Assembly: GCA_948144175.1 (NCBI GenBank)
Contig: CANXME010001290.1
Location: 882,501 to 946,500, forward strand
DNA length: 64,000 nt
Origin: Closterium sp. NIES-65
Lineage: Eukaryota; Streptophyta; Zygnematophyceae; Desmidiales; Closteriaceae
Direction: 5' to 3'
The notes under the pieces: model-generated
Seen by the model: the letters and a program-made list of their open reading frames with translations, nothing else
Told to the model about the DNA's origin: nothing
Database searches by the model: none
Position numbers and translations under genes: made by a program
Shown: positions 25,495 to 64,000 of the stretch, in pieces
How positions within the stretch are numbered: the first letter of the stretch is position 1
How the letters are laid out: each line of letters begins with the position of its first letter

Positions 25495-25496
25495 GC

Positions 25497-28149: not shown

Positions 28150-28154
28150 AGATT

Positions 28155-34972: not shown

Positions 34973-34977
34973 AGATT

Positions 34978-41003: not shown

Positions 41004-41240
41004 CGACAAAATCCGCGTCGAAAAGTTAATCGGGTCGACGGGAAACGCTCTGCTCGGCGATGCCCGCGTCGAGCTCACTTCCGTCGACCAGCGATCCGTT
41101 GAAATACCCATTTCATCAATTTTGTCGATGAGTGACTTGCGTCTTCGACGTCGAAATAGTCTCGTCCACTAGCAACTCGTCGACGGGCACTTTCGTCGAT
41201 CAGAAAAAACACTTCGACGTCGACGATTTAATATCTTCGA
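41004..41240. repeat. TCGAC/GTCGA-rich patch
   Basis: The words GTCGAC, TCGACG and CGTCGA recur about fifteen times in 240 bp, next to the truncated E7 LTR. Resembles the block at 21396-22215 in word use but not in longer units. Confidence 0.5.
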
Positions 41241-41477
41241 TGGACGCTTCGCCGCACACATATCAGAGTCCCAGATGCAATCGCACATAGATTATAATCC
41301 CCAAAGTTGCCGATGACCGCAAAATGAACACCATTGTGCTCCGGAAAGCATGGTCAATTTCGCCCAAAGGAGGGCGAGGCCTTTTATATTCAACAAGAAT
41401 CTTTCCGAATGTGCTCATTGTGCTCTTTTATATCTTTGAAGTAGATGAGAATGTCATTCATGTACACCACCACGCAA
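41241..41477 (-). pseudogene. Gypsy B reverse transcriptase palm, downstream half
   Basis: Minus strand: CVVVYMNDILIYFKDIKEH, with the catalytic motif YMND at 41453-41464 (Asn for Asp). Further downstream the frame decays. It continues upstream in the gene at 43006 on the other side of N2. Confidence 0.75.
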
Positions 41478-41482
41478 TCGTC

Positions 41483-41625
41483 TGTCAGAATTAGCGGTCA
41501 GAAACAAGAATGAAGAAAGGAGGGTTTGCACTAGCAGTAGTTGGCATACATATAAGAAACCCTAATTGGGTTGTACTCGCTATAGAGTACCCCACTGCAG
41601 GCTAGACAATAATAACATTCTGACA
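41483..41625 (-). repeat. N2 3' LTR
   Basis: 143 bp; on the minus strand TGTCAGAATGTTATTATTG...CTAATTCTGACA. Confidence 0.9.
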
Positions 41626-42857: not shown

Positions 42858-43000
42858 TGTCAGAACTAGCAGTCAGAAACAAGAATGAAGAAAGGAGGGT
42901 TTGCACTAGCAGCAGTTGGCATACATATAGGAAACCCTAACTGGGTTATACTTGCTATAGAGTACCCCACTACAGGCTAGACAATAATAACATTCTGACA
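42858..43000 (-). repeat. N2 5' LTR
   Basis: 143 bp; on the minus strand TGTCAGAATGTTATTATTG...CTAGTTCTGACA, abutting the PBS. Confidence 0.9.
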
Positions 43001-43005
43001 TCGTC

Positions 43006-43480
43006 CAGCAAGGGTTGTATGATGTGGTTCATTTCCGCTTGAATTGTTGTCGATGTGTTGCAGAATACGAACGACGTCACCAAGTTTTTGTACGAGTTAT
43101 ATCTGGTACAAAACGTTGTTTTGTGGATCAAGTTGTCCACCATCTTAGGGCGTGTTCCTACAGCCCCTTATCAGGTGACCTCTTGTCAGACTTGTGCGGT
43201 TCAATGCGATTCAACGCGATCAAATTTTATTATGCGCGTTTCAGTGCGGTATGACGCGAATCTGACACGAGGTTCGCCTGATAAGAGGCCGTAGGAACAC
43301 GCCCTTAATTACTCATGAACCCGATCACAAGTCTAGTTTAGAGAACAATGTTGCCCCGCGCATTTTATGTAGGGTATGAGATGTTTGCTTTTCACTGTCT
43401 GATTGTTTAGAGCCCGGTAGTCGCATATTTGTAAACTACTGTATGCCTTGAGAGTGAATAGATTCGGTGCGTCGTAGGCG
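43006..43480 (-). pseudogene. Gypsy B reverse transcriptase, upstream half
   Basis: Minus strand from about 43480: MRLPGSKQSDSEKQTSH, MRGATLFSKLDL, then after the MITE MVDNLIHKTTFCTRYNSY and QAEMNHIIQPLLDD, the last residues before the N2 target. This is the standard order of gypsy RT fingers and palm. Stops and small frameshifts are present. Confidence 0.75.
43148..43304. mobile_element. Harbinger/Tourist-like MITE (157 bp) inside gypsy B
   Basis: Ends GGGCGTGTTCCTAC and its inverse GTAGGAACACGCCC, with imperfect complementarity extending over about 40 bp (GCCCCTTATCAGG against CCTGATAAGAGGC). Flanked by TTA at 43145-43147 and 43305-43307. No coding capacity. Confidence 0.85.
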
Positions 43481-43636
43481 TCAGCAGCCCGTTGTCAGTC
43501 ACGGACGCCACCCCTAGAGCCTCTTCGCCTCAACCTCCCTCCCACAGTGGCAACCGTAGCAGGGCGCACGACGGGTGCGGCTGGTGCAGCAAACGCGCGG
43601 TAGGTGTGACAACGGGAGGCGCGATTGGCGCGGCAG

Positions 43637-43993
43637 TGTCGAGAGACCTGCACTCGGGATTCCCGATTGATCCTACGAGGGGGGGTTTGGGCGCAGTGAC
43701 CCGCATTTGAAACAAGCCCTTTTATCCCAATGGTCTAGTGGCTGGGATTCTGACATAATATCAGAGCGAAATATCTTGGGTTCGAATCCGCGTACATGCA
43801 CATGCTGAAAAATGCGTTGTATCGTGTCCTGGGCCTCCAAGTGTGGGGGGGAGTGTCGAGAGACATGCATTGGGGATCCCCGCTTGATCCTAGGGGAGTT
43901 GGGGCATATTACCTTGAGAGGGGTTTGGGCGCATTGACCCGCATTTAGAACAAAATTGTTTATCCCATTGGTCTTGTGGCTGGGATTTTAACA
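43637..43993 (+). mobile_element. TRIM: miniature LTR retroelement (357 bp)
   Basis: LTRs 43637-43755 (119 bp) and 43854-43993 (140 bp), both TGTCGAGAGAC...ACA, around a 98-bp interior. The interior starts TAATATCAGAGC (PBS-like) and ends TGTGGGGGGGAG (polypurine tract). Flanks GGCAG (43632-43636) and GACAG (43994-43998) fit a target duplication with one change. The end of each LTR reads like the 5' half of tRNA-Glu (GGTCTAGTGGCTGGGATT), and GGGTTCGAATCC, a B-box match, lies about 42 bp further on in the interior. Confidence 0.8.
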
Positions 43994-43998
43994 GACAG

Positions 43999-44579
43999 GT
44001 ATGCAAGGCCGCAGCGCGGCGAGTCGGGAAGGATCAAGGACGGCCGCGCTACATTTCTTAACCGTATCGCCTGGTAACGTAGCCGTCGGACTACAGGCTG
44101 TGACGATCGCCACCGCAGTTGCGCAGTTCGCTTGGAGCTATCGGTGAGAACGCCACCATAGTACCAGGCTCAATGAACTTCCCGATCTAGATAACTTGTC
44201 AAGATAGCTCTAAAAGGTTAAGTTAGGAGCTTGAAAAATAGGAAGGGGAAAGAGAGGTTTCACTAGAAAGTAAGAGCACGAAATACAAGTAGGTAGCAGT
44301 GGGTAATGTGTATCATCAATAGTTGTAACAAATTGGCTATGCTAGTGTGTACCAATGTAATATATATATATATACACGTATATATGAAATATTTATTTTG
44401 GCATAGGCTGCCTCGGTGTATGTGAAATCGGCCAAACATGCACTTCGAAAATAGGCGTTGTACTCGAAGTAGTAAAACCTTGTTAACAAGAAACTTTTGA
44501 CCTATCTGTTGTAGAAAAGGTTTGGGAAAATATGTCAATGGTAACTTACATGGGGCACTATAACGCGTACGGTAACGAT
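43999..44579. other. No recognised gene; (AT)n microsatellite
   Basis: Unassigned DNA with a short TA-dinucleotide tract around 44358-44385. No supported frame. Confidence 0.35.
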
Positions 44580-44781
44580 TTCCTTGTAATCTTATATAAA
44601 ATCTTGTATCTCTTTGTTTTAATCCACTTACTTTGCCCTCACATACTAGTGCAAGGTGGTTCATAATCTCTTTATTAACGCTTCCGCTACTACATCACTC
44701 TAGGAACACTAAGCGTTAACAGCAACATCAACAACAACGTGACGCCCATGAGTCTCGATGGCTCATCCTACGCACACGGGA
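44580..44781 (+). pseudogene. E2-type LTR and gag start remnant (E8)
   Basis: Blocks such as CTTGTAATCTTATATAAAATC and ACTAGTGCAAGGTGGTTCA match the end of the E2 LTR (11755-11850). After a deletion, gag-like ACGCCCATGAGTCTCGATGG resembles 12241-12260 in E2. Confidence 0.6.
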
Positions 44782-45024
44782 TGTCAGAATAATATATAAA
44801 TCTATAGATTGTTTTGTAACTGCTTGTAGTGTAGACTACTGTAGTTATACAATATTCTGTTTGGTGGTGCACCTTTCTTCTTGCCTATATGTACTGCTCG
44901 CTCTATAGTGAAATCACTCTCTTCTCTTTTCAACTTTCTCGACTCTCCTAACTGAACTACTCGAACTCAACCAAGGCTCCTAAGTTATGGCTCCTAAGCC
45001 TAACTCTTACTAGTACTTTTCACA
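44782..45024 (+). repeat. Solo LTR (243 bp) in E8 gag remnant
   Basis: TGTCAGAATAATATATAA...ACTTTTCACA with target duplication CGGGA at 44777-44781 and 45025-45029. No internal region. A partial CAAGGCTCCTAAG...CTCCTAAGCC tail resembles the LTR remnants at the palindrome centre. Orientation uncertain. Confidence 0.75.
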
Positions 45025-45321
45025 CGGGAATCAACAACAACAACCTACCTTTGCTCCGTACGAGCCCTAGCGCGGCTCCGTCAGCTTCATGCCACAACCA
45101 CAATCTGCACCGGGACAAGAGAGAACGCTGGACGCACTACAAGTTTAGTCGCAGTTCGCGCACGTTCTAAAACTGCAAATGACAAAACCCTTCGACGGGA
45201 AGGATTTCTTTACCTAGTCGTTCGAATTCGAGCTGATGATGGAAGGAGCGCAAATCCTTGGCTTCTTCGACGGGTCCCTGCCATACCCAACAAACGGCAC
45301 ACAGTATGAGAAGCAGCAGTA
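45025..45321 (+). pseudogene. E8 copia gag fragment (left palindrome arm)
   Basis: Reads PTFAPYEP*RGSVSFMPQ, SQFAHVLKLQMTKPFDGKDF, FELMMEGAQILGFFDGSLPY, matching E2 gag at 12296-12560 with stops at several codons. Cut at 45321 by N3. The inverted copy of 45095-45321 is at 63774-64000. Confidence 0.8.
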
Positions 45322-45450
45322 TGTTAAAGTAAGAAGAAAGAAGAGGGACTGCACTAGCAAGAATGGGGATACAAATAGCAAACCCTAGAAGGGTTGTACT
45401 CGCTATAGAGCACCCCACTACAAGCTAGAGCATAAGATAACATTCTGACA
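45322..45450 (-). repeat. N3 left 3' LTR
   Basis: 129 bp, mirror image of 63645-63773 and close to the N1 LTR at 27578. Confidence 0.9.
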
Positions 45451-46049
45451 CACCCCCATAGCCAAAGTGGGGTGTAATTAGCAGAGCAAGCAAAGCAGTA
45501 CAAGCTCAGGGTGGATCACAATGTCACAACACATTCTGAGCACAAGTTCAAGAAGCAATAGTTTAAAGTTCACAATTATGAGCAAAGCTAGTAATAGTCA
45601 CAACGGGCAAGTGAGGAGGAGAGAGAGTGAGAGGAGAGGAGATAGGAGGCGACGGATGAAGCTGCAGACACACGGGCAACAGGAGGCACACTGGCACAGC
45701 GGCTATCGGAACAACGCTCCGGAATACTGGAGTAACTGGCCCCGCGGCTAAAGTAGCGGCAAACGAGCAACGGACCCACGGGCGGCTGGCACAGGTGGCT
45801 ACGACTGGGCTACCGGACAAAGTCCCCGAAATACAAGTGCTACAGGCGACACGACGGCAACCTCCTTTCAGCTTCCCCAAACTATCCCACTCCCCCCAGG
45901 CACACACCCGCAACTACACCGCTAGCTCCACTCCCCCTTCACCCCCCCCCTTAGTACCACTCCACCGGCTCCAACACGTCCACCCCCCCTCAGCGGCAGC
46001 TGCAGCACAAGGAGTCGAAGGAGGAGGAGGAGCAGGGAACGGTACAGAG

Positions 46050-49000
46050 TGTAGGGCGGCGGGGCCGCAGTGTAGGGCGGCGGGGCCGCTTATTAGGGCG
46101 GCGGGGCCGCAGCGAGAGAGGCGGCGGGGCCGCAGTGTAGGGCGGCGCGGCCGCAAAGTAGGGCGGCGGGGCCGCAGCGAGAGAGGCGGCGAGGCCGCAA
46201 TGAAGGGCGGCGGGGCCGCTGAGTAGGGCGGCGGGGCCGCAGCGAGAGAGGCGGCGGGGCCGCAGTGTAGGGCGGGGGGGCCGCTGAGTAGGGTGGCGGG
46301 GCCGGGCGAGAGAGGCGGCGGGGCCTCAGTGAAGGGCGACGGGGCCGCTGAGTAGGGCGGCGGGGCCGCAGCAAGAGAGGCGGCAGGGCCGCAGTGAAGG
46401 GCGGCGGGGCCGCTGAGTAGGGCGGCGGGGCCGCAGCGAGAGAGGCTGCGGGGCCGCAATGTAGGGCGGCGGGGTTGCTGAGTAGGGCCGCGGGTGTTAG
46501 AATAGTAGGAGTTGGGGCCTAGGCTTAGTAGCCTAGGCCCACACTAGGAGGTAGGCAAGGTGCTTTAGAACTAGGACTTAGGGTTTGGGAAGGAGAATTG
46601 GAAGGAAGGAATGATGGACTAGCAAGCAGCAGGACACACAAATAGAAAACCCTAAGGGGTTGTACTCAGTATTGAGCACCCCACTGCAGGCTAGACAAAT
46701 AACATTCTGACAGCGGGGCCGCAGTGAAGGGCGGCGGGGCCGCTGAGTAGGGCGGCGAGGCCGCAGCGAGAGAGGCGGCGGGGCCGCAGTGAAGGGTGGC
46801 GGGGCCGCTAAGTAGGGCGGCGGGGCCGCAGCGAGTGAGGCAACGGGGCCGCAAAGAAGGGCGGCGGGGATGCTGAGTACGGCGGGGGGACCGCGGCGAA
46901 AGAGGCGGCGAGGCCGCAGTTTAGGGCGGCGGGGCCGCTGAGTAGGGCGGCGGGGCCGCAGCGAGAGAGGCGGCGGGGCCGCAGTGAAGGGCGGCGGGGC
47001 CGCTGAGTAGGGCGGTGAGGCCGCAGCGAGAGAGGCGGCGTGGCCGCAGTGAAGGGCGGCTGGGCTGCTGAGTAGGGCGGGGGGGCCGCAGCAAGAGAGG
47101 CGGCAAGGCCGCTGAGTAGGGCGGCGGGGCTGCTGCGAGAGAGGCGGTGGGGCCGCAATGAAGGGTGGCGAGGCTGCTGAGTAGGGCGGCAGGGCTGCAG
47201 CGAGAGAGGCGGCGGGGCCGCAGTTTAGGGCGGCGGGGCCGCTGAGTAGGGCGGCAGGGCCGCAGCGAGAGAGGCGGCGGGGCCGCAGTGAAGGGCGGCG
47301 GGGCCGCTGAGTAGGGCGGCAGGGCCGCAGCGAGAGAGGCGGCGGGGCCGCAGTGAAGGGCGGCGGGGCCGCTGAGTAGGGCGTCAGAGCCGCAGAGTAT
47401 GGCGGCAGGGCCGCAGCGAGAGAGGCGGCGTGGCCGTAGTGTAGGGCAGCGAGGCCGCTAAGTAGGGCGGCGGGGCCGCAGCGAGAGAGGCGGCGGGGCC
47501 GCAGTGAAGGGCGGCGAGGCCGTTGAGTAGGGCGGCGGGGCCGCAGCGAGAGAGGCTGCGGGGCCGCAGTGTAGGGCGGCGGGGCCACTGAGTAGGGCGT
47601 CGGGGCCGCAGCGAGAGAAGCGGCGGGGTCGCAGTGAAGGGCGGCGGGGCCACTAAGTAGGGCGGCGGGGCCGCAGCGAGAGAGGCGGCGGGGCCGCAGT
47701 GTAGGGCGGCTTGGCCGCTGAGTAGGGCGGCGGGGCCGCAGCGAGAGAGGCGGCGGGGCCGCAGTGAAGGGCGGCGGGGCCACTGAGTAGGGCGGCGGGG
47801 CCGCAGCGAGAGAGGCGGCAGGGCCGCAGTGAAGGGCGGCGGGGCTGCTGAGTAGGGCGGCCGGGCCGCAACGAGAGAGGCGGCGGGGCTGCAGTGAAGG
47901 GCGGCGAGGCCGCTGAGTAGGGCGGCGGGGCCGCAGCGAGAGAGGTGGCCGGGCCGCAGTGTAGGACGGCGGGGCCGCTGAGTAGGGCGGCGGGGCCGCA
48001 GCAAGAGAGGCGGCAAGGCCGCAGTGAAGGGCGGCGGGGTCGCTAAGTAGGGCGGCGGGGCCGTAGTGAAGGGCGGCGGGGCCGCTGAGTAGGGCGGCAG
48101 GGCCGCAGCAAGAGAGGCGACGGGGCCGGAGTGAAGGGCGGCGGGGTTGCTGAGTAGGGCGGGGGGGCCGCAGCGAGAGAGGCGGCGGGCCGCAGTGTAG
48201 GGCGGCGGGTCCGCTGAGTAGGGCGGCGGGGCCGCAGCGAGAGAGGCGGCGGGGCCGCAGGGAAGGGCAGCGGGGCCGTTGAGTAGGGCAGCGGGGCCGC
48301 AGCGAGAGAGGCCGCGGGGCCGCAGTGAAGGGCGGCGGGGCCGCTGAGTAGGGCGGCGGGGCCGCAGCGAAAGAGGCGGCGAAGCCGCAGTGTAGGGCGG
48401 CGGGGCCGCTGAGTAGGGCGGCGGGGCCGCTGCGAGAGAGGCGGCGGGGCCTCAATGAAGGGCGGCGGGGCCGCTTAGTTGGGCGGCGGGACCGCAGCGA
48501 GAGAGGTGGCCGGGCCGCAGTTTAGGGCGGCGGGGCCGCTGAGTAGGGCGGCAGGGCCGTAGCGAGAGAGGCGGCGGGGCCACAGTGAAGGGCGGTGGGG
48601 CCGCTGAGTAGGGCGGCGGGGCCGCAGCGAGAGAGGCGGCGGGGCCGCAGTGAAGGGCGGCGGGGCCGCAGAGTAGGGCGGCGGGGCCGCAGAGTAGGGC
48701 GGCGGGGCAGCAGCGAGAGAGGCGGCGGGGCCGTAGTGTAGTGCGGCGAGGCCGCTGAGTAGGGCGGCGGGGCCGCATCGAGAGAGGCGGCGGGGCCGCA
48801 GTGTAGGGCGGCAGGGCCACTGAGTAGGGCGTCGGGGCCGCAGCAAGAGAGGCGGCGGGGCCGCAGTGAAGGGCGGCAGGGCCGCTGAGTAGGGCGGCGG
48901 GGCCGCAGCGAGAGAGGCGGCGGGGCCGCAGTGTAGGGCGGCAGGGCCGCTAAGTAAGGCGGCGGGGCCGCTGAGTAGGGCGGCGGGGCCGTAGCGAGAG

Positions 49001-52000
49001 AGGCAGCGGGGCCGCAGTGTAGGGCGGCGGGGCCGCTGAGTAGGGCGGCGGGGCCGCAGCGAGAGAGGCGGCGGAGCCGTAGTGTAGGCCGACGGGGCCG
49101 CTGAGTAGGGCGGCGGGGCCGCAGCGAGAGAGGCGGCGGGGCCGCAGTGTAGGGCGGCCGGGCCGCTGAGTAGGGCGACGGGGCCGCAGCGAGAGAGGCG
49201 GCGGGGCCGAAGTGTAGGGCGGCGGGGCCGCTGAGTAGGGCGGCGAGGCCGCAGAGGGAGAGGCGGCGGGGCCGTAGTGAAGGGCGGCGGGGCCGCTTAG
49301 TAGGGCGGCGGGGCCGCAGCGAGAGAGGTGGCAGGGCTGCAGTGTAGGGCGGCAGGGCCGCTGAGTAGGGCGGCGGGGCCGCAGCGAGAGAGGCAGCGGG
49401 GCCACAGTGAAGGGCGGCGGGGCCGCTGAGTAGGGCGGCGGGGCCGCAGCGAGAGAGGTGGCGGGGCCGCAGTGAAGGGCGTCGGGGCCGCAGCAAGAGA
49501 GGCGGCGGGGCCGCAATGAAGGGCGGCGGGGCCGCTGAGTAGGGCGGCAGGGCCGCAGCGAGAGAGGCGGCGGGGCCGCAGTGAAGGACGGCGGGGCCGC
49601 TGAGTAGGGCGGCGGGGTCGCATTGAGAGAGGCGGCGGGGCCACAGTGAAGGGCGGCGGGGCCGCTGAGTAGGGCGGCGGGGCCGCAGCGAGAGAGGCGG
49701 CGGGGCCGTAGTGAAGGGCGGCGTGGCCGCTGAGTAGGGCGGCGGGGCCGCAGCGAGAGAGGCAGCGGGGCCACAATGAAGGGCGGCGGGGCCGCTGAGT
49801 AGGGCGGCGGGGCCGCAGCGAGAGAGGTGGTGGGGTTGTAGTGTAGGGCGGCGGGGCCGCTGAGTAGGGCGGCGGGGCTGCAGCGAGAGAGGCGGCGGGG
49901 CCGCAGTGTAGGGCGGCGCGGCCGCAGCGAGAGAGGCGGCGGGGCCGTAGTGTAGGGCGGCGGGGCCCCTGAGTAGGGCGGCTGGGCCGCAGCGAGAGAG
50001 GCGGCGGGGCCGGAGTGAAGGGCGGCGGGGCCGTTGAGTAGGGCGGCGGGGCTGCAGCGAGAGAGGCGGCGGGGCCGCAGTGAAGGGCGGAGGGGCCGCT
50101 GAGTAGGGCGGCGGGGCCGCAGCGAGAGAGGCGGCGCGGCCGCAGTGTAGGGCGGCGGGGTTGCTGAGTAGGGCGGCGGGGCCGCTGCGAGAGAGGCCGC
50201 GGGGCCGCAATGAAGGGCGGCGGGGCCGCTGAGTAGGGCGGCGGGGCCGCAGCGAGAGAGGTGGCCGAGCCGCAGTTTAGGGCGGCGGGGCCGCTGAGTA
50301 GGGCGGCAGGGCCGCAGCGAGAGAGGCGGCGGGGCCACAGTGAAGGGCGGCGGGGCTGCTGAGTAGGGCGGCGGGGCCGCAGCGAGAGAGGCGGCGGGGC
50401 CGCAGTGAAGGGCGGCGGAGCCGCAGAGTAGGGCGGCGGGGCCGCTGAGTAGGGCGGCGGGGCCGCAACGAGAGAGGCAGCGAGGCCGTAGTGTAGGGCG
50501 GCGAGTCCGCTGAGTAGGGCGGCGGGGACGCAGCGAGAGAGGCGGCGGGGCCGCAGTGAAGGGCGGCGAGGCCGCTGAGAAAGGGCGGCGGGCCCGCAGC
50601 GAGAGAGGCGGCGGGGCCGCAGTGTAGGGCGGCGGGGCCACTGAGTAGGGCGTCGTGGCCGCAGCGAGAGAGGCGACGGGGCCGCAGTGAAGGGCGGTAG
50701 GGCCGCTGAGTAGAGCGGCGGGGCCGCAGCGAGAGAGGCGGCGGGGCCGCAGTGTAGGGCGGCAGGGCCGCTAAGTAGGGCGGCGGTGCCGCTAAGTAGG
50801 GCGGCGGGGCCGTAGCAAGAGAGGCGGCGGGGCCGTAGTGTAGGGGGGCGGGGCCGCAGAGTAGGGCGGCGGGGCCGCAACGAGAGAGGTGGCAGGGCTG
50901 TAGTGTAGGGCGGCGGGGCCGCTGAGTAGGGCGGCGGGGCCGTAGCGAGAGAGGCGGCGGGGCAGCAGTGTAGGGCGCCGGGGCCGCTGAGTAGGGCGGC
51001 GGGGCCGCAGCGAGAGAGGCGGCGGGACCGAAGTGTAGGGCGGCGGGGCCGCTGAGTAGGGCGGCAGGACCGCAGCGAGAGAGGCGGCAGGGCCGCAGTG
51101 AAGGGCGCCGGGGCCGTTGAGTAGGGCGGCGGGGCCGCAGCGAGAGAGGCGGCGGGGCCGCAGTGAAGGGCGGAGGGGCCGCTGAGTAGGGCAGCGGGGC
51201 CGCAGCGAGAGAGGCGGCAGGGCCGCAGTGTAGGGCGGGAGGGCCGCTGAGTAGGGCAGCGGGGCCGCAACGAGAGAGGCAGCAGGGCCATAGTGAAGGG
51301 CGGCGGGGCCGCTGAGTAGGGCGGCGGGGCCGCAGCGAGAGAGGCGGCGGGGCCGCAGTGAAGGGCGTCGGGGCCGCAGCAAGAGAGGCGGCGGGGCCGC
51401 AATGAAGGGCGGCGGGGCCGCTGAGTAGGGCGGCGGGGCCGCAGCGAGAGAGGCGGCGGGGCCGCAGTGAAGGACGGCGGGGCCGCTGAGTAGGGCGGCG
51501 GGGTCGCAGCGAGAGAGGCGTCAGGGTTGCAGTGAAGGGCGGCGAGCCGCTAAGTAGGGTGGCGGGGCCACAGCGAGAGAGGCGGAGGGGCCGCAGTGAA
51601 GGGCGGCGGGGCCGCTGTGTAGGGCGGCGGGGCCGCAGCGAGAGAGGTGGCGCGGCAGCAGTGTAGGGCGGCGGGGCCGCTGAGTAGGGCGGCGGGGCCG
51701 CTGCGAGAGAGGCGGCGGGGCCGCAATGAAGGGCGGCGGGGCCGCTTAGTAGGGCGGCGGGGCCGCAGCGAGAGAGGTGGCCGGGCTGCAGTTTAGGGCG
51801 GCAGGGCCGCTGAGTAGGGCGGCAGGGCCGTAGCGAGAGAGGCGGCGGGGCCGCAGTGAAGGGCGGCGGGGCCGCTGAGTAGGGCGGCGGGGCCGCAGCG
51901 AGAGAGGCGGCGGGGCCGCTGTGAAGGGCGGCGGGGCCGCTGAGTAGGGCGGCGGGGCCGTAGAGTAGGGCGGCGGGGCCGCAGCGAGAGAGGCGGCGGG

Positions 52001-53330
52001 GCCGCAGTGTAGGGCGGCGAGGCCGCTGAGTAGGGCAGCGGGGCCGCAGCGAGAGAGGCGGCGGGGCCGCAGTGTAGGGCGGCGGGGCCACTGAGTAGGG
52101 CGTCAGGGCCGCAGCGAGAGAGGCGGCGAGGCCGCAGTGAAGGGCGGCAGGGCCGCTGAGTAGGGCGGCGGGGCCGCAGCGAGAGAGGCGGCGGGGCCGC
52201 AGTGTAGGGCGGCAGGGCCGCTAAGTAAGGCGGCAGGGCCGTTGAGTAGGGCGGCGGGGCCGCAGCGAGAGAGGCGGCGGGGCCGCAGTGAAGGGCGGAG
52301 GGGCCTCTGAGTAGGGCGGCGGGGCCGCAGCGAGAGAGGGGGCAGGGCCGCAGTGTAGGGCGGCAGGGCCGCTGAGTAGGGCGGCGGGGCCGCAGCGAGA
52401 GAGGCAGCGGGGTCATAGTGAAGGGCGGCGGGGCCGCTGAGTAGGGTGGCGGGGCCGCAGCGAGAGAGGCGGCGGGGCCGCAGTGAAGGGCGTCGGGGCC
52501 GCAGCAAGAGAGGCGGCGGGGCCGCAATGAAGGGCGGCGGGGCCGCTGAGTAGGGCGGCAGGGCCGCAGCGAGAGAGGCGGCGGGGCCGCAGTGAAGGAC
52601 GGCGGGGCCGCTGAGTAGGGCGGCGGGGTCGCAGCGAGAGAGGCGTCGGGGCCGCAGTGAAGGGCGGCGGGGCCGCTAAGTAGGGCGGCGGGGCCACAGC
52701 GAGAGAGGCGGCGGGGCCGCAGTGAAGGGCGGCACGGCCGCTGAGTAGGGCGGCGGGGCCGCAGCGAGAGAGGCAGCGGGGCCACAGTGAAGGGCGGCGG
52801 GGTCGCTGAGTAGGGCGGCGGGGCCGTAACGAAAGAGGTGGTGGGGTTGTAGTGTAGGGCGGCGGGGCCGCTGAGTAGGGCGGCGAGGCCGCAGCAAGAG
52901 AGGCGGCGGGGCCGCAGTGTAGGGCGGCAGGGCTGCTGAGTAGGGCGGCGGGGCCGCGGCGAGAGAGGCGGCGGGGCCGCATTGTAGGGCGGCGGGGCCG
53001 CTGAGTAGGGCGGCGGGGCCGCAGCGAGAGAGGCGGCGGGGCCGCAGTGAAGGGCGGCGGGGCCGCTGAGTAGGGTGGTGGGGCCGCAGCGAGAGAGGCG
53101 GCAGGGCCGCAGTGTAGGGCAGCGGGGCCGCTGAGTAGGGCGGCGGGGCAGTAGCGAGAGAGGCGGCGGGGCCGCAGTGAAGGGCGGCGGGGCCGCTGAG
53201 TAGGGCGGCGGGGCCGCATCGAGAGAGGCGGCGGGGCCGCAGTGAAGGGCGGCGGGGCCGCTGAGTAGGGCGGCGGGGCCGCATCGAGAGAGGCGGCGGG
53301 GCCGCAGTGAAGGGCGGCGGGGCCGCTGAG
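46050..53330 (-). repeat. 65-bp satellite array, left arm (about 108 copies)
   Basis: In element sense each 65-bp unit is three sub-repeats that start with GCGGCCCCGCCGCC and end CTACTCA (21 bp), CTTCACT or CTACACT (21 bp) and TCTCTCGCT (23 bp). Copy number is array length minus the LTR, divided by 65. Open frames up to 701 codons cross the array on this strand, but they follow from the repeat composition and are not called genes. Confidence 0.95.
46495..46712 (-). repeat. Solo LTR (218 bp) inside left satellite
   Basis: On the minus strand TGTCAGAATGTTATTTGTC...TATTCTAACA, target duplication GCGGG at 46490-46494 and 46713-46717. The right arm has the uninterrupted site at 62598-62602. Confidence 0.95.
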
Positions 53331-53592
53331 ACAGGCCGCAGGTAGGGCGACGGGGCGGGGGCCATAGGTAGGGCGACGGGGTTCGACGCGCGGGTCCCCG
53401 TCGCCCGTCTCAGTGCCTCCCGGGGGCGACGCGCCGAGTGACGGGGACCGAAACCCGTCGCGCGCCTTGGGGTGGATGGTGGGCAGAAAACCGTTGCGCG
53501 CCTCAGGGCGCCCGGCGAGCAGATAAACTGCCGCACGCCACGGGGCGTGCGGCACAGAGAGTAGCAGTGGCAGTTGCTGCGGAAGCAACGAG

Positions 53593-53905
53593 CTAGGCAA
53601 GGAAGAAGTTAGGCAAAAGAGGGGGTTGCACTAGCAAGCAAGGAGATACATATACGAAACCCTAAGGGGTTATACTCGCTATAGAGTACCCCACTGCACG
53701 CTAGAGAACATAAGATAATATTCTGACAACTCATTCTTCCCAATTCTCTCGATCCTCACCCTTGGCACAAAACTACTCGATATCCTAGTTGGGCCTAGGC
53801 TCCTAAGCCTAGGCCCTAGTAAAACTTAGTTCATTCTTGCTCATCTTGACATGCTATCAGAGCAGGTTGATCCCCTTGGATCGATCCTGTGGGTGGGCTC
53901 ACCAC
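53593..53905. other. Palindrome centre: two truncated LTRs head to head
   Basis: Minus-oriented LTR start (TGTCAGAATATTATC, ending at 53728) abuts at 53729 the downstream part of a plus-oriented LTR (CTCATTCTTCCCAATTCT... GGGCCTAGGCTCCTAAGCC ...CTTGACA at 53851). The PBS and about 40 bp follow. The left side lacks the matching PBS segment. Confidence 0.85.
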
Positions 53906-54120
53906 CTCGTTGCTTCCGCTGCAACTGCCACTGCTACTCTCTCTGCCACACGCCCCGTGGCGTGCGGCAGTTTATCTGCCCGCCGGGCGCCCTGAGGAGC
54001 GCAGCGGTTTTCTGCCCACCATCCACCCCAAGGCGCGCAACGGGTTTCGGTCCCCGTCACTCGGCGCGTCGCCCCCGGGAGGCACTGAGACAGGCGACGA
54101 GGACCCGCGCGTCGCACCCC

Positions 54121-57100
54121 GTCGCCCTACTCAGCGGCCCCGCCGCCCTACACTGCGGCCCCGCCGCCTCTCTCGCTGCGGCCCCGCCGCCCTACTCAGC
54201 GGCCCCGCCGCCCTACACTACAACCCCACCACCTCTCTCGTTACGGCCCCGCCGCCCTACTCAGCGGCCCCGCCGCCCTTCACTGTGGCCCCGCTGCCTC
54301 TCTCGCTGCGGCCCCGCCGCCCTACTCAGCGGCCCCGCCGCCCTTCACTGCGGCCCCGCCGCCTCTCTCGCTGCGGCCCCGCCGCCCTACTCAGCGGCCC
54401 CGCCGCCCTACAATGCGGCCCCGCCGCCTCTCTCGCCGCGGCCCCGCCGCCCTACTCAGCGGCCCCGCCGCCCTACACTGCGGCCCCGCCGCCTCTCTCG
54501 CTGCGGCCCCGCCGCCCTACTCAGCGGCCCCGCCGCCCTACACTACAACCCCACCACCTCTCTCGTTACGGCCCCGCCGCCCTACTCAGCGGCCCCGCCG
54601 CCCTTCACTGTGGCCCCGCTGCCTCTCTCGCTGCGGCCCCGCCGCCCTACTCAGCGGCCCCGCCGCCCTTCACTGTGGCCCCGCCGCCTCTCTCGCTGTG
54701 GCCCCGCCGCCCTACTTAGCGGCCCCGCCGCCCTTCACTGCGGCCCCGACGCCTCTCTCGCTGCGACCCCGCCGCCCTACTCAGCGGCCCCGCCGTCCTT
54801 CACTGCGGCCCCGCCGCCTCTCTCGCTGCGGCCCCGCCGCCCTACTCAGCGGCCCCGCCGCCCTTCATTGCGGCCCCGCCGCCTCTCTTCCTGCGGCCCC
54901 GACGCCCTTCACTGCGGCCCCGCTGCCTCTCTCGCTGCGGCCCCACCACCCTACTCAGCGGCCCCGCCGCCCTTCACTGTGGCCCCGCTGCCTCTCTCGC
55001 TGCGGCCCCGCCGCCCTATTCAGCAGCCCTGCCGCCCTACACTGCGGCCCTGCCGCCTCTCTCGCTGCGGCCCCGCCGCCCTACTCAGCGGCCCCTCCGC
55101 CCTTCACTGCGGCCCCGCCGCCTCTCTCGCTGCAGCCCCGCCGCCCTACTCAACGGCCCCGCCGCCCTTCACTGCGGCCCTGCTGCCTCTCTCGCTGCGG
55201 CCCCTCCGCCCTACTCAGCGGCTTCGCCGCCCTACACTTCGGCCCCGCCGCCTCTCTCGCTGCGGCCCCGCCGCCCTACTCAGCGGACTTGCCGCCCTAC
55301 ACTGCGGCCCCGCCGCCTCTCTCGCTGCGGCCCCGCCGCCCTACTCTGCGGCCCCGCCGCCCTACTCAGCGGCCCCGCCGCCCTTCACTGCGGCCCCGCC
55401 GCCTCTCTCGCTGCGGCCCCGCCGCCCTACTCAGCGGCCCCGCCGCCCTACTCTGCGGCCCCGCCGCCTCTCTCGCTGCAGCCTTGCCGCCCTACTCAGC
55501 GGCCCCGCCGCCCTAAACTGCGTCCCGGCCACCTCTCTCGCTGCGGCCCCGCCGCCCTACTCAGCGGCCCCACCGCCCTTCATTGCGGCCCCGCGGGCTC
55601 TCTCGCAGAGGCCCCGCCGCCCTACTCAGCAGCCCCGCCGCCCTACACTGCGGCCGGGCCGCCTCTCGCGCTGCGGCCTCGCCGCCCTACTCAGCGGCCC
55701 CTCCGCCCTTCGCTGCGGCCCCGCCGCCTCTCTCGCTGCGGCCCCGCCGCCCTACTCAACGGCCCCGCCGCCCTTCACTGTGGCCCCGCCGCCTCTCTCG
55801 CTGCGGCCCCGCGGCCCTACTCAGCGGCCTCGCCGCCCTACACTGCGGCCCCGCCGCCTCTCTCGCTGCGCCCGCGCCGCCCTACACTACGGCCCCGCCG
55901 CCTCTCTCGCTGCGGCCCCGCCGCCCTACTTAGCGGCCCCGCCGCCCTACACTACAACCCCACCACCTCTCTCGCTGCGGCCCCGCCGCCCTACTCAGCG
56001 ACCTCGCCGCCCTTCACTGTGGCCCCGCTGCCTCTCTCGCTGCGGCCCCGCAGCCCTACTCAGCGGCCCCGCCGCCCTTCAATGCGGCCCTGCGCCTCTC
56101 TCGCTGTGGCCCCCCCGCCCTACTTAGTGGCACCGCCGCCCTTCACTGCGGCCCCGCCGCCTCTCTCGATGGGACCCCGCCGCCCTACTCAGCGGCCCCG
56201 CTGTCCTTCACTGCGGCCCCGCCGCCTCTCTTGCTGCGGCCTCGCCGCCCTAATCAGCGGCCCCGCCGCCCTTCATTGCGGCCCCGCCGCCTCTCTTGCT
56301 GCGGCCCCGACGCCCTTCACTGCGGCCCCGCCGCCCTACTCAGCGGCCCCGCCGCCCTTCACTGTGGCCACGCTGCCTCTCTTGCTGCGGCCCTGCCGCC
56401 CTACTCAGCGGCCCTGCCGCCCTACACTGCAGCCCTGCCGCCTCTCTCGCTGCGGCCCCGCCGCCCTACTAAGCGACCCCGCCGCCCTTCACTACGGCCC
56501 CGCCGCCTCTCTCTCTGCGGCCTCACCGCCCTACACAGCGGCCCCGCCGCCCTACACTTCGGCCCCGCCGCCTCTCTCGCTACGGCCCCGCCGCCCTACT
56601 CAGCGGCCTAGCCGCCCTACACTGCAGCCCCGCCGCCTCTCTCGCTGCGGCCCCGCCGCCCTACTCAGCGGCCCCGCCGCCCTACACTACGGCCCCGCCG
56701 CCTCTCTCGCTGCGGCCCCGCCGCCCTACTCAGCGGCCCCGCCGCCCTACACTGCGGCCCCGCCGTCTCTCTCGCTACAGCCCCGCCGCCCTACTCAGCG
56801 GCCCTGCCGCCTTACTTAGCGGCCCTGCCGCCCTACACTGCGGCCCCGCCGCCCTACTCAGCGGCCCGGCCGCCCTTCACTGCGGCCCCGCCGCCTCTCT
56901 CGCTGCAGCCCTGACGCCCTACTCAGTGGCCCCGCCGCCCTACACTGCGGCCCCGCCGCCTCTCTCGCTGCGGCCCCGCCGCCCTACTCAGCGGCCTCGC
57001 CGCCCTTCACTGCGGCCCCGCCGCCTCTCTTGCTGCGGCCCCGCCGCCCTACTCTGCGGCCCCGCCGCCCTACTCAGCGGCCCAGCCGCCCTACACTACA

Positions 57101-60100
57101 GCCCTGCCACCTCTCTCGCTGCGGCCCCGCCGCCCTACTCAGCGGCCCCGCCGCCCTACTCAGCGGCCCCTCCGCCCTACTTAGCGGCCCTGCCGCCCTA
57201 CACTACGGCCCCGCCGCGTCTCTCGCTGTGGCCTCGCCGCTCTACTTAGCGGCCCTACCGCCCTTCACTGCGGCCCCGCCGCCTCTCTCGTTGCGGCCCC
57301 GACGCCCTACTCAGTGGCCCCGCCGCCCTACACTGCGGCCCCGCCGCCTCTCTCGCTGCGGCCCCGCCGCCCTACTCAGCGGCCTCGCCGCCCTTCACTG
57401 CGGCCCCGCCGCCTCTCTCGCTGCGGCCCCGCCGCCCTACTCAGCGGACTCGCCGCCCTACACTGCGGCCCCACACCCTCTCTCGCTGCGGCCCCGCCGC
57501 CCTACTCAGCGGCCCCGCCGCCCTTCACTGGGGCCCTGTCGCCTCTCTCGCTGCGGCCCTGCCGCCCTACTCAGCGGCCCCGCCGCCCTAAACTGCGGCC
57601 CGGCCACCTCTCTCGCTGCGGCCCCGCCGCCCTACTCAGCGGCCCCGCCGCCCTTCATTGCGGCCCCGCGGCCTCTCTCGCAGCGGCCCCGCCGCCCTAC
57701 TCAGCAACCCCGCCGCCCTACACTGCGGCCGCGCCGCCTCTCTCGCTGGGGCCTCGCCGCCCTACTCAGCGGCCCCTCCGCCCTTCACTGCGGCCCCGGC
57801 GCCTCTCTCACTGCAGCCCCGCCGCCCTACTCAACGGCCCCGCCGCCCTTCACTGCGGCCCCGCCGCCTCTCTCGCTGCGGCCCAGCCGCCCTAGTCAGC
57901 GGCCCCGCCGCCCTACACTGCGGTTTTGCCGCCTCTCTCGCTGCGGCCGCGCCGCCCTACACTGCGGCCCCGCCGCCTCTCTCGCTGCGGCCCCGCCGCC
58001 CTACTCAGCGGCCCCGCCGCCCTACACTACAACCCACCACCTCTCTCGCTGCAGCCCCGCCGCCCTACTCAGCGGCCCCGCCGCCCTTCACTGTGGCCCC
58101 GCTGCCTCTCTCGCTGCAGCCCTGCCGCCCTACTCAGCGGCCCTGCCACCCTTCACTGTGGCCCCGCTGCCTCTCTCGCTGCGCCCCCGCCGCCCTACAC
58201 TGCGGCCCCGCCGCCTCTCTCGCTGCGGCCCCGCCGCCCTACTCAGCGGCCCCGCTGCCCTACACTACGGCTCCGCCGCCTCTCTCGCTGCGGCCCTGCC
58301 GCCCTACTCAGCGGCCCCGCCGCCCTACACTGCGGCCCCGCCGCCTTTCTCGCTGCGGCCCCGCCGCCCTACTCTGCGGCCCCGCCGCCCTACTCAGCGG
58401 CCCCGCCGCCCTTCACTGCGGCCCCGCCGCCTCTCTCGCTGCGGCCCCGCCGCCCTACTCAGCGGCCCCGTCACCCTTCACTGCGACCCCGCCGCCTCTC
58501 TCGCTACGGCCCTGCCGCCCTACTCAGCGGCCCCGTTGCCCTAAACTGCGGCCCGGCCACCTCTCTCGCTGCGGCCCCGCCACCCTACTAAGCGGCCCCG
58601 CCGCCCTTCATTGAGGCCCCGCCGCCTCTCTCGCAGCGGCCCCGCCGCCCTACTCAGCGGCCCCGCCGCCCTACACTGCGGCTTCGCCGCCTCTCTCGCT
58701 GCGGCCCCGCCGCCCTACTCAGCAACCCCGCCGCCCTTCACTGCGGCCCCGCCGCCTCTCTCGCTGCGGCCCCGCTGCCCTACTCAACGGCCCCACCGCC
58801 CTTCACTGCGGCCCCGCCGCCTCTCTCGCTGCGGCCCCGCCGCCCTACTCAGCGGCCCCACCGCCCTACACTGCGGCCCCGCCGCCTCTCTCGCTGCGGC
58901 CCCCCCGCCCTACTCAGCAACCCCGCCGCCCTTCACCCCGTCGCCTCTCTTGCTGCGGCCCCGCCGCCCTACTCAGCGGCCCCGCCGCCCTTCACTACGG
59001 CCCCGCCGCCTCTTTCGCTTCGGCCCCGCCGCCCTACTCAGCGACCCTGCCGCCCTTCACTGCGGCCATGCCGCCTCTCTCGCAACGGCCCTGCCGCCCT
59101 ACTCAGCGGCCCCGCCGCCCTACACTGCGGCCCGGCCACCTCTCTCGCTGCGGCCCCGCCGCCCTACTCAGCGGCCTCGGCGCCCTTCACTGCGGCCCCG
59201 CCGCCTCTCTCGCTCCGGCCCGGCCGCCCTACTCAGCGGCCCCGCCGCCCTTCACTGCGGCCCTGCCGCCTCTCTCGCTGCGGCCCCGCCGCCCTACTTA
59301 GCGGCCCTGCCGCCCTTAACTGCGGCCCCGCCGCCTCTCTCGCTGCGGCCACGCCGCCCTACTCAGCGGCCCCGCCGCCCTACACTGCGGCCCCGCCGCC
59401 TCTCTCGCTGCGGCCCAGCCGCCCTACTCAGCGGCCCCGCCGCCCTTCACTGCGGCCCCGCCGCCTCTCTCGCTGCGGCCCCGCTGCCTACTTAGCGGCC
59501 TCGCCGCCCTACATTGCGGCCACGCCGCCTCTCTCGCTGCGGCCCTGCCGCCATACTCTGCGGCCCGGCCGCCCTACTCAGCGGCCCCGCCGCCCTTCAC
59601 TGCGGCCCCGCCGCCTCTCTCGCTGCGGCCCTGCCGCCCTACTCAGCGGCCCCGCCGCCCTTCACTACGGCCCCGCCACCTCTCTCGCTGCGGCCCCGCC
59701 GCCCTACTCAGCGGCCCCGCCGCCCTTCATTGCGGCCCCGCGGCCTCTCTCGCAGCGGCCCCGCCGCCCTACTCAGCAACCCCGCCGCCCTACACTGCGG
59801 CCGCGCCGCCTCTCTCGCTGGGGCCTCGCCGCCCTACTCAGCGGCCCCTCCGCCCTTCACTGCGGCCCCGCCGCCTCTCTCACTGCAGCCCCGCCGCCCT
59901 ACTCAACGGCCCCGCCGCCCTTCACTGCGGCCCCGCCGCCTCTCTCGCTGCGGCCCAGCCGCCCTACTCAGCGGCCCCGCCGCCCTACACTGCGGTCCCG
60001 CCGCCTCTCTCGCTGCGGCCGCGCCGCCCTACACTTCAACCCCACCACCTCTCTCGCTGCAGCCCCGCCGCCCTACTCAGCGGCCCCGCCGCCCTTCACT

Positions 60101-63045
60101 TTGGCCCCACTGCCTCTCTCGCTGCAGCCCCGCCGCCCTACTCAGCGGCCCCGCCGCCCTTCACTGTGGCCCCGCTGCCTCTCTCGCTGCGGCCCCGCCG
60201 CCCTACACTGCGGCCCCGCCGCCTCTCTCGCTGCGGCCCCGCCGCCCTACTCAGCGGCCCCGCTGCCCTACACTACGGCTCCGCCGCCTCTCTCGCTGCG
60301 GCCCCGCCGCCCTACTCAGCAGCCCCGCCGCCCTACACAGCGGCCCCGCCGCCTCTCTCGCTACGGCCCCGCCGCCCTACTCAGCGGCCCCGCCGCCTTA
60401 CTTAGTGGCCCTGCCGCCCTACACTGCGGCCCCGCCGCCTCTCTCGCTGCGGCCCCGCCGCCCTACTCAGCGGCCTCGCCGCCCTACACTGTGGCCCCGC
60501 CGCCTCTCTCGCTGCGGCCCCGCCGCCCTACTCAGCGGCCCCGCCGCCCTTCACTGCGGTCCCGCCGCCTCTCTCGCTGCGGCCCCGCCGCCCTACTTAG
60601 CGGCTCCGCCGCCCTTCACTGCGACCCCGCCGCCTCTCTCGCTACGGCCCTGCCGCCCTACTCAGCGGCCCCGCCGCCCTTCACTGCGGCCCCGCCGCCT
60701 CTCTCGCTGCGGCCCCGCCGCCCTACTCAGCGGCCCCGCCGCCCTTCACTGCGACCCCGCCGCCTCTCTCGCTACGGCCCTGCCGCCCTACTCAGCGGCC
60801 CCGTTGCCCTAAACTGCGGCCCGGCCACCTCTCTCGCTGCGGCCCCGCCGCCCTACTAAGCGGCCCCGCCGCCCTTCATTGAGGCCCCGCCGCCTCTCTC
60901 GCAGCGGCCCCGCCGCCCTACTCAGCGGCCCCGCCGCCCTACACTGCGGCTTCGCCGCCTCTCTCGCTGCGGCCCCGCCGCCCTACTCAGCGGCCCCGCT
61001 GCCCTTCACTGCGGCCCCGCCGCCTCTCTCGCTGCGGCCCCGCTGCCCTACTCAACGGCCCCACCGCCCTTCACTGCGGCCCCGCCGCCTCTCTCGCTGC
61101 AGCCCCGCCGCCCTACTCAGCGGCCCCGCCGCCCTACACTGCGGCCCCGCTGCCTCTCTCGCTGCGGCCCCCCCGCCCTACTCAGCAACCCCGCCGCCCT
61201 TCACTCCGGCCCCGTCGCCTCTCTTGCTACGGCCCCGCCGCCCTACTCTGCGGCCCCGCCGCCCTTCACTACGGCCCCGCCGCCTCTTTCGCTTCGGCCC
61301 CGCCGCCCTACTCAGCGACCCTGCTGCCCTTCACTGCGGCCCTGCCGCCTCTCTCGCTGCGGCCCCGCCGCCCTACTCAGCGGCCCCGCCGCCCTACACT
61401 GCAGCCCGGCCACCTCTCTTGCTGCGGCCCCGCCGCCCTACTCAGCGGCCTCGCCGCCCTTCACTGCGGCCCCGCCGCCTCTCTCGCTGGGGCCCGGCCG
61501 CCCTACTCAGCGGCCCCGCCGCCCTTCACTGCGGCCCTGCCGCCTCTCTCGCTGCGGCCCCGCCGCCCTACTTAGCGGCCCTGTCGCCCTTCACTGCGGC
61601 CCCGCCGCCTCTCTCGCTGCGGCCACGCCGCCCTACTCAGCGGCCCCGCCGCCCTACACTGCGGTCCCGCCGCCTCTCTCGCTGCGGCCCTGCCGCCCTA
61701 CTCAGTGGCCCCGCCGCCCTTCACTACGACCCCGCCGCCTCTCTCGCTGCGGCCCCAACGCCCTACTCAGTGGCCCCGCCGCCCTAGAATGCGGCCCCGC
61801 AGCCTCTCTCGATGCGGCCCCGCCGCCCTACTCAGCGGCCCCGCCGCCCTAATTAGCGGCCTCGCCGCCCTACACTACGGCCACGCCGCCTCTCTCGCTG
61901 CGGCCCTGCCGCCATACTCTGCGGCCCCGCCGCCCTACTCAGCGGCCCCGCCGCCCTTCACTGCGGCCCCGCCGCCTCTCTCGCTGCGGCCCTGCCGCCC
62001 TACTCAGCGGCCCCGCCGCCCTTCTCTGCGGCCCCGCCGCCTCTCTCGCTGCGGCCCTGCCGCCCTACTCAGCGGCCCCGCCGTCCTAAACTGCGGCCCC
62101 GCCGCCTCTCTCGCTGCGGCCCTGCCGCCCTACTCAGCAGCCTCGCCGCCCTTCATTGCGGCCCCACCGCCTCTCTCGCAGCAGCCCCGCCGCCCTACTC
62201 AGCAGCCTTGCCGCCTCTCTCGCTGCGGCCCCCCCGCCCTACTCAACAGCCCAGCCGCCCTTCACTGCGGCCCCGCCGCCTCTCTCGCTGCGGCCTCACC
62301 GCCCTACTCAGCGGCCCCGCCACCCTTCACTGCGGCCCCGCCGCCTCTCTCGCTGCGGCCCCGCCGCCCTACTCAGCGGCCCCGCCGCCCTAAACAACGG
62401 CCCCGCCGCCTCTTTCGCTGCGGCCCCCCCCGCCCTACTCAGCAACCCCGCCGCCCTTCTTTGCGGCCCCGTCGCCTCTCCTGCTGCGGCCCTGCCGCCC
62501 TACTTAGCGGCCCCGCCACCCTTCACTGCGGCCCCGCCGCCTCTCTCGCTGCGGCCCCGCCGCCCTATTCAGCGGCCCCGCCGCCCTTCACTGCGGCCCC
62601 GCCGCCCTACTCAGCAACCCCGCCGCCCTACATTGCGGCCTCTCAGCCTCTCTCGCTGCGGCCCCGCCGCCCTACTCTGCGGCCCCGCCGCCCTTCAATG
62701 CGGCCCTGCCGCCTCTCTCGCTGCGGCCCCGCCGCCCTACTCAGCGGCCCCGCCGCCCTTCACTGCGGCCCCGCCGCCTCTCTCGCCCGGCCCCGCCACC
62801 CTACTCAGCGTCCCCCCCGCCCTACACTGCGGCCCCGCCGCCTCTCTCGCTACGGCCCCGCCGCCCTACTCAGCGGCCCCGCCGCCCTTCATTGCGGCCT
62901 CGCCGCCTCTCTTGCTGCGGCCCCGCCGCCCTACTTTGCGGCCCCGCCGCCCTACACTGCGGCCCCGCCGCCTCTCTCGCTGCGGCCCCGCCGCCCTAAT
63001 AAGCGGCCCCGCCGCCCTACACTGCGGCCCCGCCGCCCTACACTC
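54121..63045 (+). repeat. 65-bp satellite array, right arm (about 137 copies)
   Basis: Same unit as the left arm, in plus orientation; the period was checked directly (CCTACTCAG at 54126 and 54191). Distinctive variants recur 2072-2361 bp apart (57659/59731, 58611/60879, 59551/61912), showing block duplication. Copies differ by scattered C/T and G/A changes. Confidence 0.95.
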
Positions 63046-63644
63046 TGTACCGTTCCCTGCTCCTCCTCCTCCTCCTCCGTCTCCTTGTGCTGCAGCTGCC
63101 GCTGAGGGGGGGTGGATGTGTTGGAGCCGGTGGAGTGGTACTAAGGGGGGGGGTGAAGGGGGAGTGGAGCTAGCGGTGTAGTTGCGGGTGTGTGCCTGGG
63201 GGGAGTGGGATAGTTTGGGGAAGCTGAATGGAGGTTGCCGTCGTGTCGCCTGCAGCATCTGTATTTCGGGGACTTTGTCCGGTAGCCCAGTCGTAGCCAC
63301 CTGTGCCAGCCGCCCGTGGGTCCGTTGCTCGTTTGCCGCTACTTTAGCCGCGGGGCCAGTTACTCCAGTATTCCGGAGCGTTGTTCCGATAGCCGCTGTG
63401 CCAGTGTGCCTCCTGTTGCCCGTGTGTCTGCAGCTTCATCCGTCGCCTCCTATCTCCTCTCCTCTCACTCTCTCTCCTCCTCACTTGCCCGTTGTGACTA
63501 TTACTAGCTTTGCTCATAATTGTGAACTTTAAACTATTGCTTCTTGAACTTGTGCTCAGAATGTGTTGTGACATTGTGATCCACCCTGAGCTTGTACTGC
63601 TTTGCTTGCTCTGCTAATTACACCCCACTTTGGCTATGGGGGTG

Positions 63645-63773
63645 TGTCAGAATGTTATCTTATGCTCTAGCTTGTAGTGGGGTGCTCTATAGCGAGTACA
63701 ACCCTTCTAGGGTTTGCTATTTGTATCCCCATTCTTGCTAGTGCAGTCCCTCTTCTTTCTTCTTACTTTAACA
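63645..63773 (+). repeat. N3 right 3' LTR
   Basis: 129 bp, TGTCAGAATGTTATCTTATG...ACTTTAACA, followed by the inverted E8 gag flank. Confidence 0.9.
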
Positions 63774-64000
63774 TACTGCTGCTTCTCATACTGTGTGCCG
63801 TTTGTTGGGTATGGCAGGGACCCGTCGAAGAAGCCAAGGATTTGCGCTCCTTCCATCATCAGCTCGAATTCGAACGACTAGGTAAAGAAATCCTTCCCGT
63901 CGAAGGGTTTTGTCATTTGCAGTTTTAGAACGTGCGCGAACTGCGACTAAACTTGTAGTGCGTCCAGCGTTCTCTCTTGTCCCGGTGCAGATTGTGGTTG
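63774..64000 (-). pseudogene. E8 copia gag fragment, inverted copy
   Basis: Minus strand carries the same gag text as 45095-45321 (KPFDGKDF, GAQILGFFDGSLPY). It shows that host DNA flanking N3 was duplicated along with it. Cut by the window end. Confidence 0.85.

Follow-up and report, generated by a model that had tools for sequence, protein, structure and literature searches.

We analyzed a 64,000-bp stretch of the Closterium sp. NIES-65 genome (the window; positions 882501-946500 of contig CANXME010001290.1, here C1287) that holds a very large palindrome running past its right edge. The left arm (L) and right arm (R) mirror each other across a short central spacer; read outward from the centre, L contains a leader, an array of a 65-bp satellite, the tail of the satellite-bearing long terminal repeat (LTR) element, which we call E, and ~32 kb of nested copia fragments. 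Our evidence consists of assembled contigs. We traced the arms beyond the window by adding 162,959 further bases of C1287 (226,959 in total, with the satellite masked) and searched the whole genome (874,075,685 bp in 2,400 contigs) for related sequences, scoring the best 40 candidates in each search; the other copies found were compared by sampled stretches.

The palindrome is genuine in the assembly and far larger than first described. The sequence-only reading had placed its left edge at 45095, a position that merely mirrors base 64000, the edge of the window; L runs on to 14160. That reading had also held that the right arm continues outward, and indeed the neighbouring C1287 sequence takes its end to 93955, for a full span of 53906-93955, about 40 kb. 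With arms of 39.4 and about 40 kb, a spacer of 313 bp, and 1.24% divergence outside the satellite, the structure belongs among the large palindromes. Inverted high-scoring segment pairs (HSPs; satellite masked) of 10.3, 2.7, 1.6, 12.5, and 15.1 kb, with overlap between the two longest, pair 14160-46045 with 63047-93955 at 97.3-98.6% identity, and a joined HSP reaches 16.4 kb. Non-arm copia copies on C1287 are 72-96% alike among the matches listed; the inverted identity of the arms is far beyond chance. Pieces of copia INT and RT are mirrored in L and R, as is an interrupted gag fragment flanking the element (79.6% and 80.6% amino acid identity in L and R to the open gag frame at 11905-12999), so the symmetry includes host flank, as had been claimed.

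Outside the satellite, L and R differ at 374 of 30,203 non-overlapping aligned columns (251 transitions and 123 transversions). When overlapping HSPs are counted, 407 of 30,965 columns differ, 108 of the 263 transitions lie at CpG, and there are 26 indels, 14 of them of 1 bp. The differences are clustered: their dispersion in 500-bp bins is 3.26, compared to a maximum of 1.86 across 2,000 random placements, and the arms are identical over a run of up to 1,659 bp, compared to a maximum of 1,148 bp in 2,000 random placements. Two larger segments, of about 1,269 and ~558 bp, are each present in only one arm (Table 1); given that both occur in several copies elsewhere on C1287, we read these differences as deletions and rejected insertions. 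The substitutions, the reciprocal deletions, and a solo LTR with a target-site duplication make the divergence look biological, and the different substitutions and indels agree with the earlier view that the arms evolved separately. A 396-bp tandem repeat (window 35336-36421), with relatives at the ends of further copia pieces, has 2.7 units in L and about 1.9 in R.

The mirror symmetry extends through the satellite. The two arrays and some 200 bp of leader are collinear over 6,959 columns at 95.4% identity (score 5336); three controls with shuffled unit order gave 92.6-92.8% and scores of 3436-3522. The satellite is located within the LTR element, between the leader and the 3' end. We tested 20 of the 44 window open reading frames (ORFs) of at least 250 amino acids against Pfam, one of the 20 lying outside the arms; copia domains were found in five of ten ORFs of the first set and no domain in any of the ten of the second, so that only copia-type domains were seen among the arm ORFs tested. 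The one satellite ORF tested had no domain, and neither tRNAs nor Rfam families were found in the 64-kb window.

From left to right, the centre is composed of the reversed L leader, the junction at 53592/53593, a minus-strand LTR head, a plus-strand LTR tail, the primer-binding-site-like motif, the start of the leader, and then the mirrored R leader. The dinucleotide AG (53591-53592) at the junction is compatible with both sides, amounting to about 2 bp of microhomology. Among the candidates scored, the full 741-bp centre has a complete match at a single place in the assembly. We considered and rejected a fold-back centred on the short LTR-tail hairpin, because the arms are not mirrored about that hairpin. 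The solo LTR in L carries nearly the same hairpin.

Table 1 Features of the palindrome and its arms, in window coordinates.
Feature	Position	Strand	Remarks
Left arm (L)	14160..53592	-	39.4 kb; BLAST and alignment
Right arm (R), portion in window	53906..64000	+	runs on to window coordinate 93955 (C1287:976455)
Spacer, 313 bp	53593..53905		single occurrence in the palindrome
Rearrangement junction 1 (putative)	53592..53593		L leader joined to R-side spacer
LTR head, starts TGTCAG at 53728	53593..53728	-	part of copia element F in ordinary copies
LTR tail of element E, ends TTGACA	53729..53848	+	11-bp inverted repeat with 4-nt loop at 53792-53817
TGCTATCAGAGC, which we take to be primer-binding-site-like	53849..53860	+	immediately after LTR end
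Satellite array (65 bp, GC-rich), left	46053..53326
Satellite array (65 bp, GC-rich), right	54117..63041		about 1.6 kb longer than left
Solo LTR, 218 bp (TG..CA)	46495..46712	-	5-bp target-site duplication CCCGC; L only, inside satellite
Interrupted copia gag fragment flanking element	45032..45325	+	mirror copy 63770-64063
Copia sequence kept in L only, about 1,269 bp	32103..33371		missing in R at 75314-75319; TGCAGC at edges
Site of ~558 bp lost from L	30457..30458		R retains 76960-77518
Outer junction of L	14036..14159		lacks 58-65 kb that the C1287:81-kb copy and C2072 contain

The palindrome is not the only place where this locus occurs. A 2,041-bp arm query (44000-46040) has five full matches among the candidates scored: L, R, C1287:86118-88158, C2087:194844-196882, and C2072:1273-3328. 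Two of these belong to ordinary copies, one at C1287:68-119 kb (the C1287:81-kb copy, hereafter the C1287 copy) and one on C2087, which are non-palindromic and run straight through the centre. Their layout is F-side, spacer, leader, satellite, arm, where the F-side is the head-to-head copia element F and beyond. The spacer and leader are contiguous at C1287:80854-81383 and C2087:207762-208291 (positions 212-741 of the 741-bp query; 98% and 99%), and both copies diverge from the palindrome at 53591-53593, entering the F-side instead of a mirrored arm; 3,894 bp of F-side are common to the two at 98.7%. Because the ordinary copies have the head-to-head LTRs, this arrangement is evidently older than the palindrome, and we dropped the idea that it was produced by folding back. 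Their satellite arrays lie at C1287:81431-86107 and C2087:196895-207714, and array length varies among copies from about 4.7 to 10.8 kb.

The fifth match, on C2072, is probably the R locus assembled twice: it agrees with R in 99.945% of 5,502 columns and 99.4% of 1,303, and differs at 13 of 7,721 positions in the inner 7.7 kb of the arm. The sequence comparisons thus suggest that the genome holds about four copies of the locus, roughly 1% apart. The right end of C1287 and C2072 from its first base are 99.4-99.95% identical in sampled stretches and unmerged, an overlap that is likely assembly redundancy inflating copy counts. Contig C1287 ends 13 kb beyond the right arm; a search for six pairs of telomere-like motifs across 227 kb gave a single match (window -26819) and nothing close to the contig end, so we rejected a telomeric end.

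The outer edges of the two arms differ. The C1287 copy continues into the outer flank of R as far as 94724 (97.3%, 4,744 columns), which indicates that the R edge is the undisturbed one. The flank of L (13000-14035) recurs 57.9 kb further out in the C1287 copy and 65.0 kb further out in C2072, at 99% each, so that L appears to end in an absence of 58-65 kb. Beyond the recurring flank the next sampled stretches remain homologous at 99.1-99.8%; homology is no longer seen in the samples at C1287:195 kb and C2072:130 kb. C2087 matches across the outer junction of L over the full 1,601-bp query. A 6.5-kb copia element occupies window coordinates 94724-101269 (C1287:977224-983769), with relatives at 93-96% on C1287 and C2087; since the match of the C1287 copy with R stops at 94724, this insertion probably postdates the split of the copies.

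To place L and R among these copies, we compared the inner 7.7 kb. At gap-free two-state sites, 22 group L with the C1287 copy, six group L with R (and C2072), and none groups L with C2087; a further 21 group R with C2072, one C2072 with L, and one R with the C1287 copy. Sites private to a single copy number 37 for the C1287 copy, 29 for L, 26 for C2087, and 11 for C2072. The 204-bp L leader agrees in placing L nearest the C1287 copy (three differences, compared to six with C2087 and nine with R). A recent fold-back copy would make L and R sisters; the ratio of 22 to six shared sites indicates that in this stretch they are not. Among the four lineages, the closest pair by distance is R and C2087 (57/7,729; 0.74%), followed by L and R (77/7,731; 1.00%) and L and the C1287 copy (77/7,732); R and the C1287 copy differ at 87/7,731, L and C2087 at 88/7,732, and the C1287 copy and C2087 at 90/7,730. 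In this comparison, which covered the inner 7.7 kb, excluding the tract of R at 79.7-84.1 kb, the arms are no more alike than each is to another copy, unlike a palindrome kept by gene conversion between its arms.

A second palindrome, made of sequences that normally lie beyond the centre, is found on C483 (96,855 bp). Spacer matches of at least 98% are four among the candidates scored: the palindrome, the two ordinary copies, and C483:48587-48895. On C483 the spacer match ends at 53899 by BLAST, or 53895 by exact letters, and beyond that point the sequence is F-side in reversed orientation, the overlap at the switch being CA by exact match or five of six letters. On one side, C483:43324-48592 corresponds to the C1287 copy at 68118-73844 in two pieces with 463 bp absent between them; on the other, C483:48587-56000 corresponds to the same copy from 81162 down to 75101, in two pieces separated by an additional 1.3 kb. 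Further out, a sampled 2.5 kb on the far side (59001-61479) is an inverted copy of the near side at 47269-44791, with 99.31% identity. The spacer and F-side that L is without therefore end on C483 within 6-10 bp of the point where L begins (equivalent to 53906), and the partner copy is without about 7 kb, between 73844 and 80854 in C1287 coordinates. The assembly thus contains two inverted junctions with complementary ends, one break matched almost exactly on its two sides, and two ordinary copies that were not rearranged.

We consider it likely that a real reciprocal rearrangement took place between copies X and Y of the locus, about 1% diverged, and that the palindrome is one of its two breakpoints. 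Two double-strand breaks would have occurred at nearly the same place: X would have broken at the boundary of spacer and leader, after the equivalent of 53895-53899 and before that of 53906, and Y at the F-side edge of the spacer, 53593, with loss of about 7 kb of its F-side. It is the agreement between the end on C483 and the start of L that fixes the X break within 6-10 bp. The four ends would have been rejoined by end joining with about 2 bp of microhomology, producing an arm-to-arm junction (this palindrome) and an F-side-to-F-side junction (the palindrome on C483), both from one event. X and Y could have been direct paralogs on one chromosome, giving an inversion, or could have lain on homeologous chromosomes, giving a U-type exchange or reciprocal translocation; inversion between direct copies and U-type exchange yield the same two junctions. 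The breaks may coincide because the copies were paired, or because the head-to-head LTR elements form a fragile site.

Several observations weigh against this reconstruction. By plain distance the inner 7.7 kb gives a tie, L being 77 differences from both R and the C1287 copy, and the outer arm does not discriminate (mismatches of 118/4,803 for L and R, 103/4,715 for the C1287 copy and L, and 110/4,801 for the C1287 copy and R). The 58-65 kb absence at the outer edge of L is common to C2087, so that lineages are mosaic along the locus. The lineage of the two F-sides on C483, F_A and F_B, agrees only weakly. F_B is closer to the C1287 copy (17/2,130 and 43/3,935 differing positions) than to C2087 (34/1,826 and 49/3,934), but the 2.5 kb sampled at its distal end matches C2087 better (99.82% of 1,093) than it does the C1287 copy (99.52% of 2,491). 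F_A is equidistant from the two (32/2,416 and 31/2,415, respectively), except for one 110-bp gap that is shared. Within the spacer, C483 stands apart from the other copies by three private sites in 309. C2072 repeats R in the sampled stretches (61782-98253) and was left unmerged, so the assembly is tangled here; the accounting of four spacers at 98% or more for four arms holds if C2072 is R assembled twice, and fails if it is a separate fifth arm.

The palindrome could instead be an assembly fold-back or chimera, in which two ordinary homeologous loci were joined through a hairpin or a chimeric read. In favour of this, two copies of the locus are ordinary, R was assembled again as C2072, the contig ends 13 kb past the right arm, and the probable source assembly is described in PMC10407611 as built from PacBio reads with Canu and 10x scaffolding. 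We nevertheless regard an artefact as unlikely. A read with a missed adapter carries two copies of one molecule, but the arms differ by 1.24% and by kilobase indels; a random chimera would hardly be expected to join the same locus within 313 bp; and no ambiguous base occurs in the 226,959 bases around the palindrome. The matched pair of junctions argues against it as well, since an artefact on one contig would lack an inverted junction 6-10 bp away on C483. No systemic foldback reads are reported in three PacBio samples (PMC12870357), although these are HiFi, Mas-Seq, and Iso-Seq data, unlike the reads used here.

A biological fold-back, in which one broken locus folds back through hairpin priming or sister-chromatid fusion, copies itself, and later diverges, corresponds to the inverted duplication of one arm proposed by the sequence-only reading. 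The asymmetric spacer and 2-bp microhomology are compatible with it, as are the six sites joining L with R and their equal distance; the patchy identity of the arms (the long identical run and the high dispersion) is compatible with arm-to-arm conversion after such an event. We rejected this explanation as very unlikely, because two copies are non-palindromic, 22 sites against six place L with another copy, and a fold-back predicts no F-side palindrome broken 6-10 bp from the start of L, whereas C483 has one. The instability by extrusion that the same reading expected is a weak argument, since a spacer of 313 bp and arms differing by about 1% should make extrusion less frequent; in wild-type yeast, lengthening a spacer from 12 to 200 bp is reported to give about 20-fold fewer rearrangements (PMC10164571). 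Two independent, oppositely oriented insertions of a satellite-bearing LTR element would place the same element type in both arms, but the mirror homology extends ~31 kb past the satellite and takes in an identical succession of copia pieces as well as the gag fragment; as the sequence-only reading had argued, these shared flanks reject independent insertion, which is extremely improbable.

A reciprocal rearrangement of this sort is a known kind of event, unusually complete here. Inversions and reciprocal exchanges with breakpoints in segmental duplications arise by end joining of two breaks. They share with the present case two joins, a mirror-image product at each join when the two breaks hit copies of the same locus, short microhomology, and small losses; what differs here is that the two copies broke at nearly the same point, with no clear homologous crossover, and that the host is a haploid alga. 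In cytogenetics, U-type exchange between homologous chromatids gives mirror-image chromosomes; as here, its products join arm to arm and tail to tail, and they derive from two homologous chromosomes, whereas our copies may or may not lie on different chromosomes. In monocentric species the products are one dicentric and one acentric chromosome. Desmids, by contrast, have been described as holocentric (PMC3897674), so mirror-image chromosomes might, as a hypothesis, be tolerated in them. Vegetative cells of Closterium are reported to be haploid (PMC10407611), and the arms should therefore not be two alleles of a diploid. It is possible, though doubtful, that the event was a reciprocal U-type exchange between homeologous chromosomes of this haploid, probably holocentric alga, with both mirror-image products retained together in one haploid genome, since holocentric chromosomes would not form dicentric bridges. 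If so, U-type exchanges would be one route to the rearranged and duplicated genomes behind the twofold variation in Closterium genome size.

The palindrome can also be set beside others. Like the yeast fold-back inverted duplications described in PMC10622511, it is a quasi-palindrome with a short spacer, but its arms are not grouped as sisters and a reciprocal-looking product exists. Its arms are similar in size to those of primate X palindromes (median 37 kb reported in PMC8981503), and the palindromes of the willow W chromosome, as described in PMC7023750, are comparable (an arm of about 20 kb in W.P1; 96-99% identity over most of W.P2). In contrast to both, the spacer here is only 313 bp, the arms are not grouped as mutual closest copies, and the ORFs tested include no non-transposon gene. 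Judging by titles and the openings of abstracts among the papers listed, we found no report of nuclear palindromes in Closterium.

Both junctions of an apparently single rearrangement can thus be read to the base and set against two unrearranged copies, which makes it possible to date the event, to type it in sister strains, and to assign it to chromosomes. A long palindrome amid many near-identical copies need not mean fold-back duplication or an artefact, and seeking the reciprocal junction can help decide the origin of assembled palindromes. Closterium shows unexplained copy-number variation, and the event bears on the origin of its duplicated DNA: over half of the shared ortholog groups are reported to be duplicated in NIES-65 (PMC10407611), and the account by Kawaguchi et al. 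(PMC10407611) leaves undecided whether whole-genome duplication with losses or many segmental events are responsible.

Contig C1144 carries partial copies of the arm query at 95-97%. More distant relatives of the locus, 87-97% identical and in opposite orientations, lie at C1144:490204-492345 and 614104-615891, and also at 270550, 479810, and 621314; these are possibly another rearranged set.

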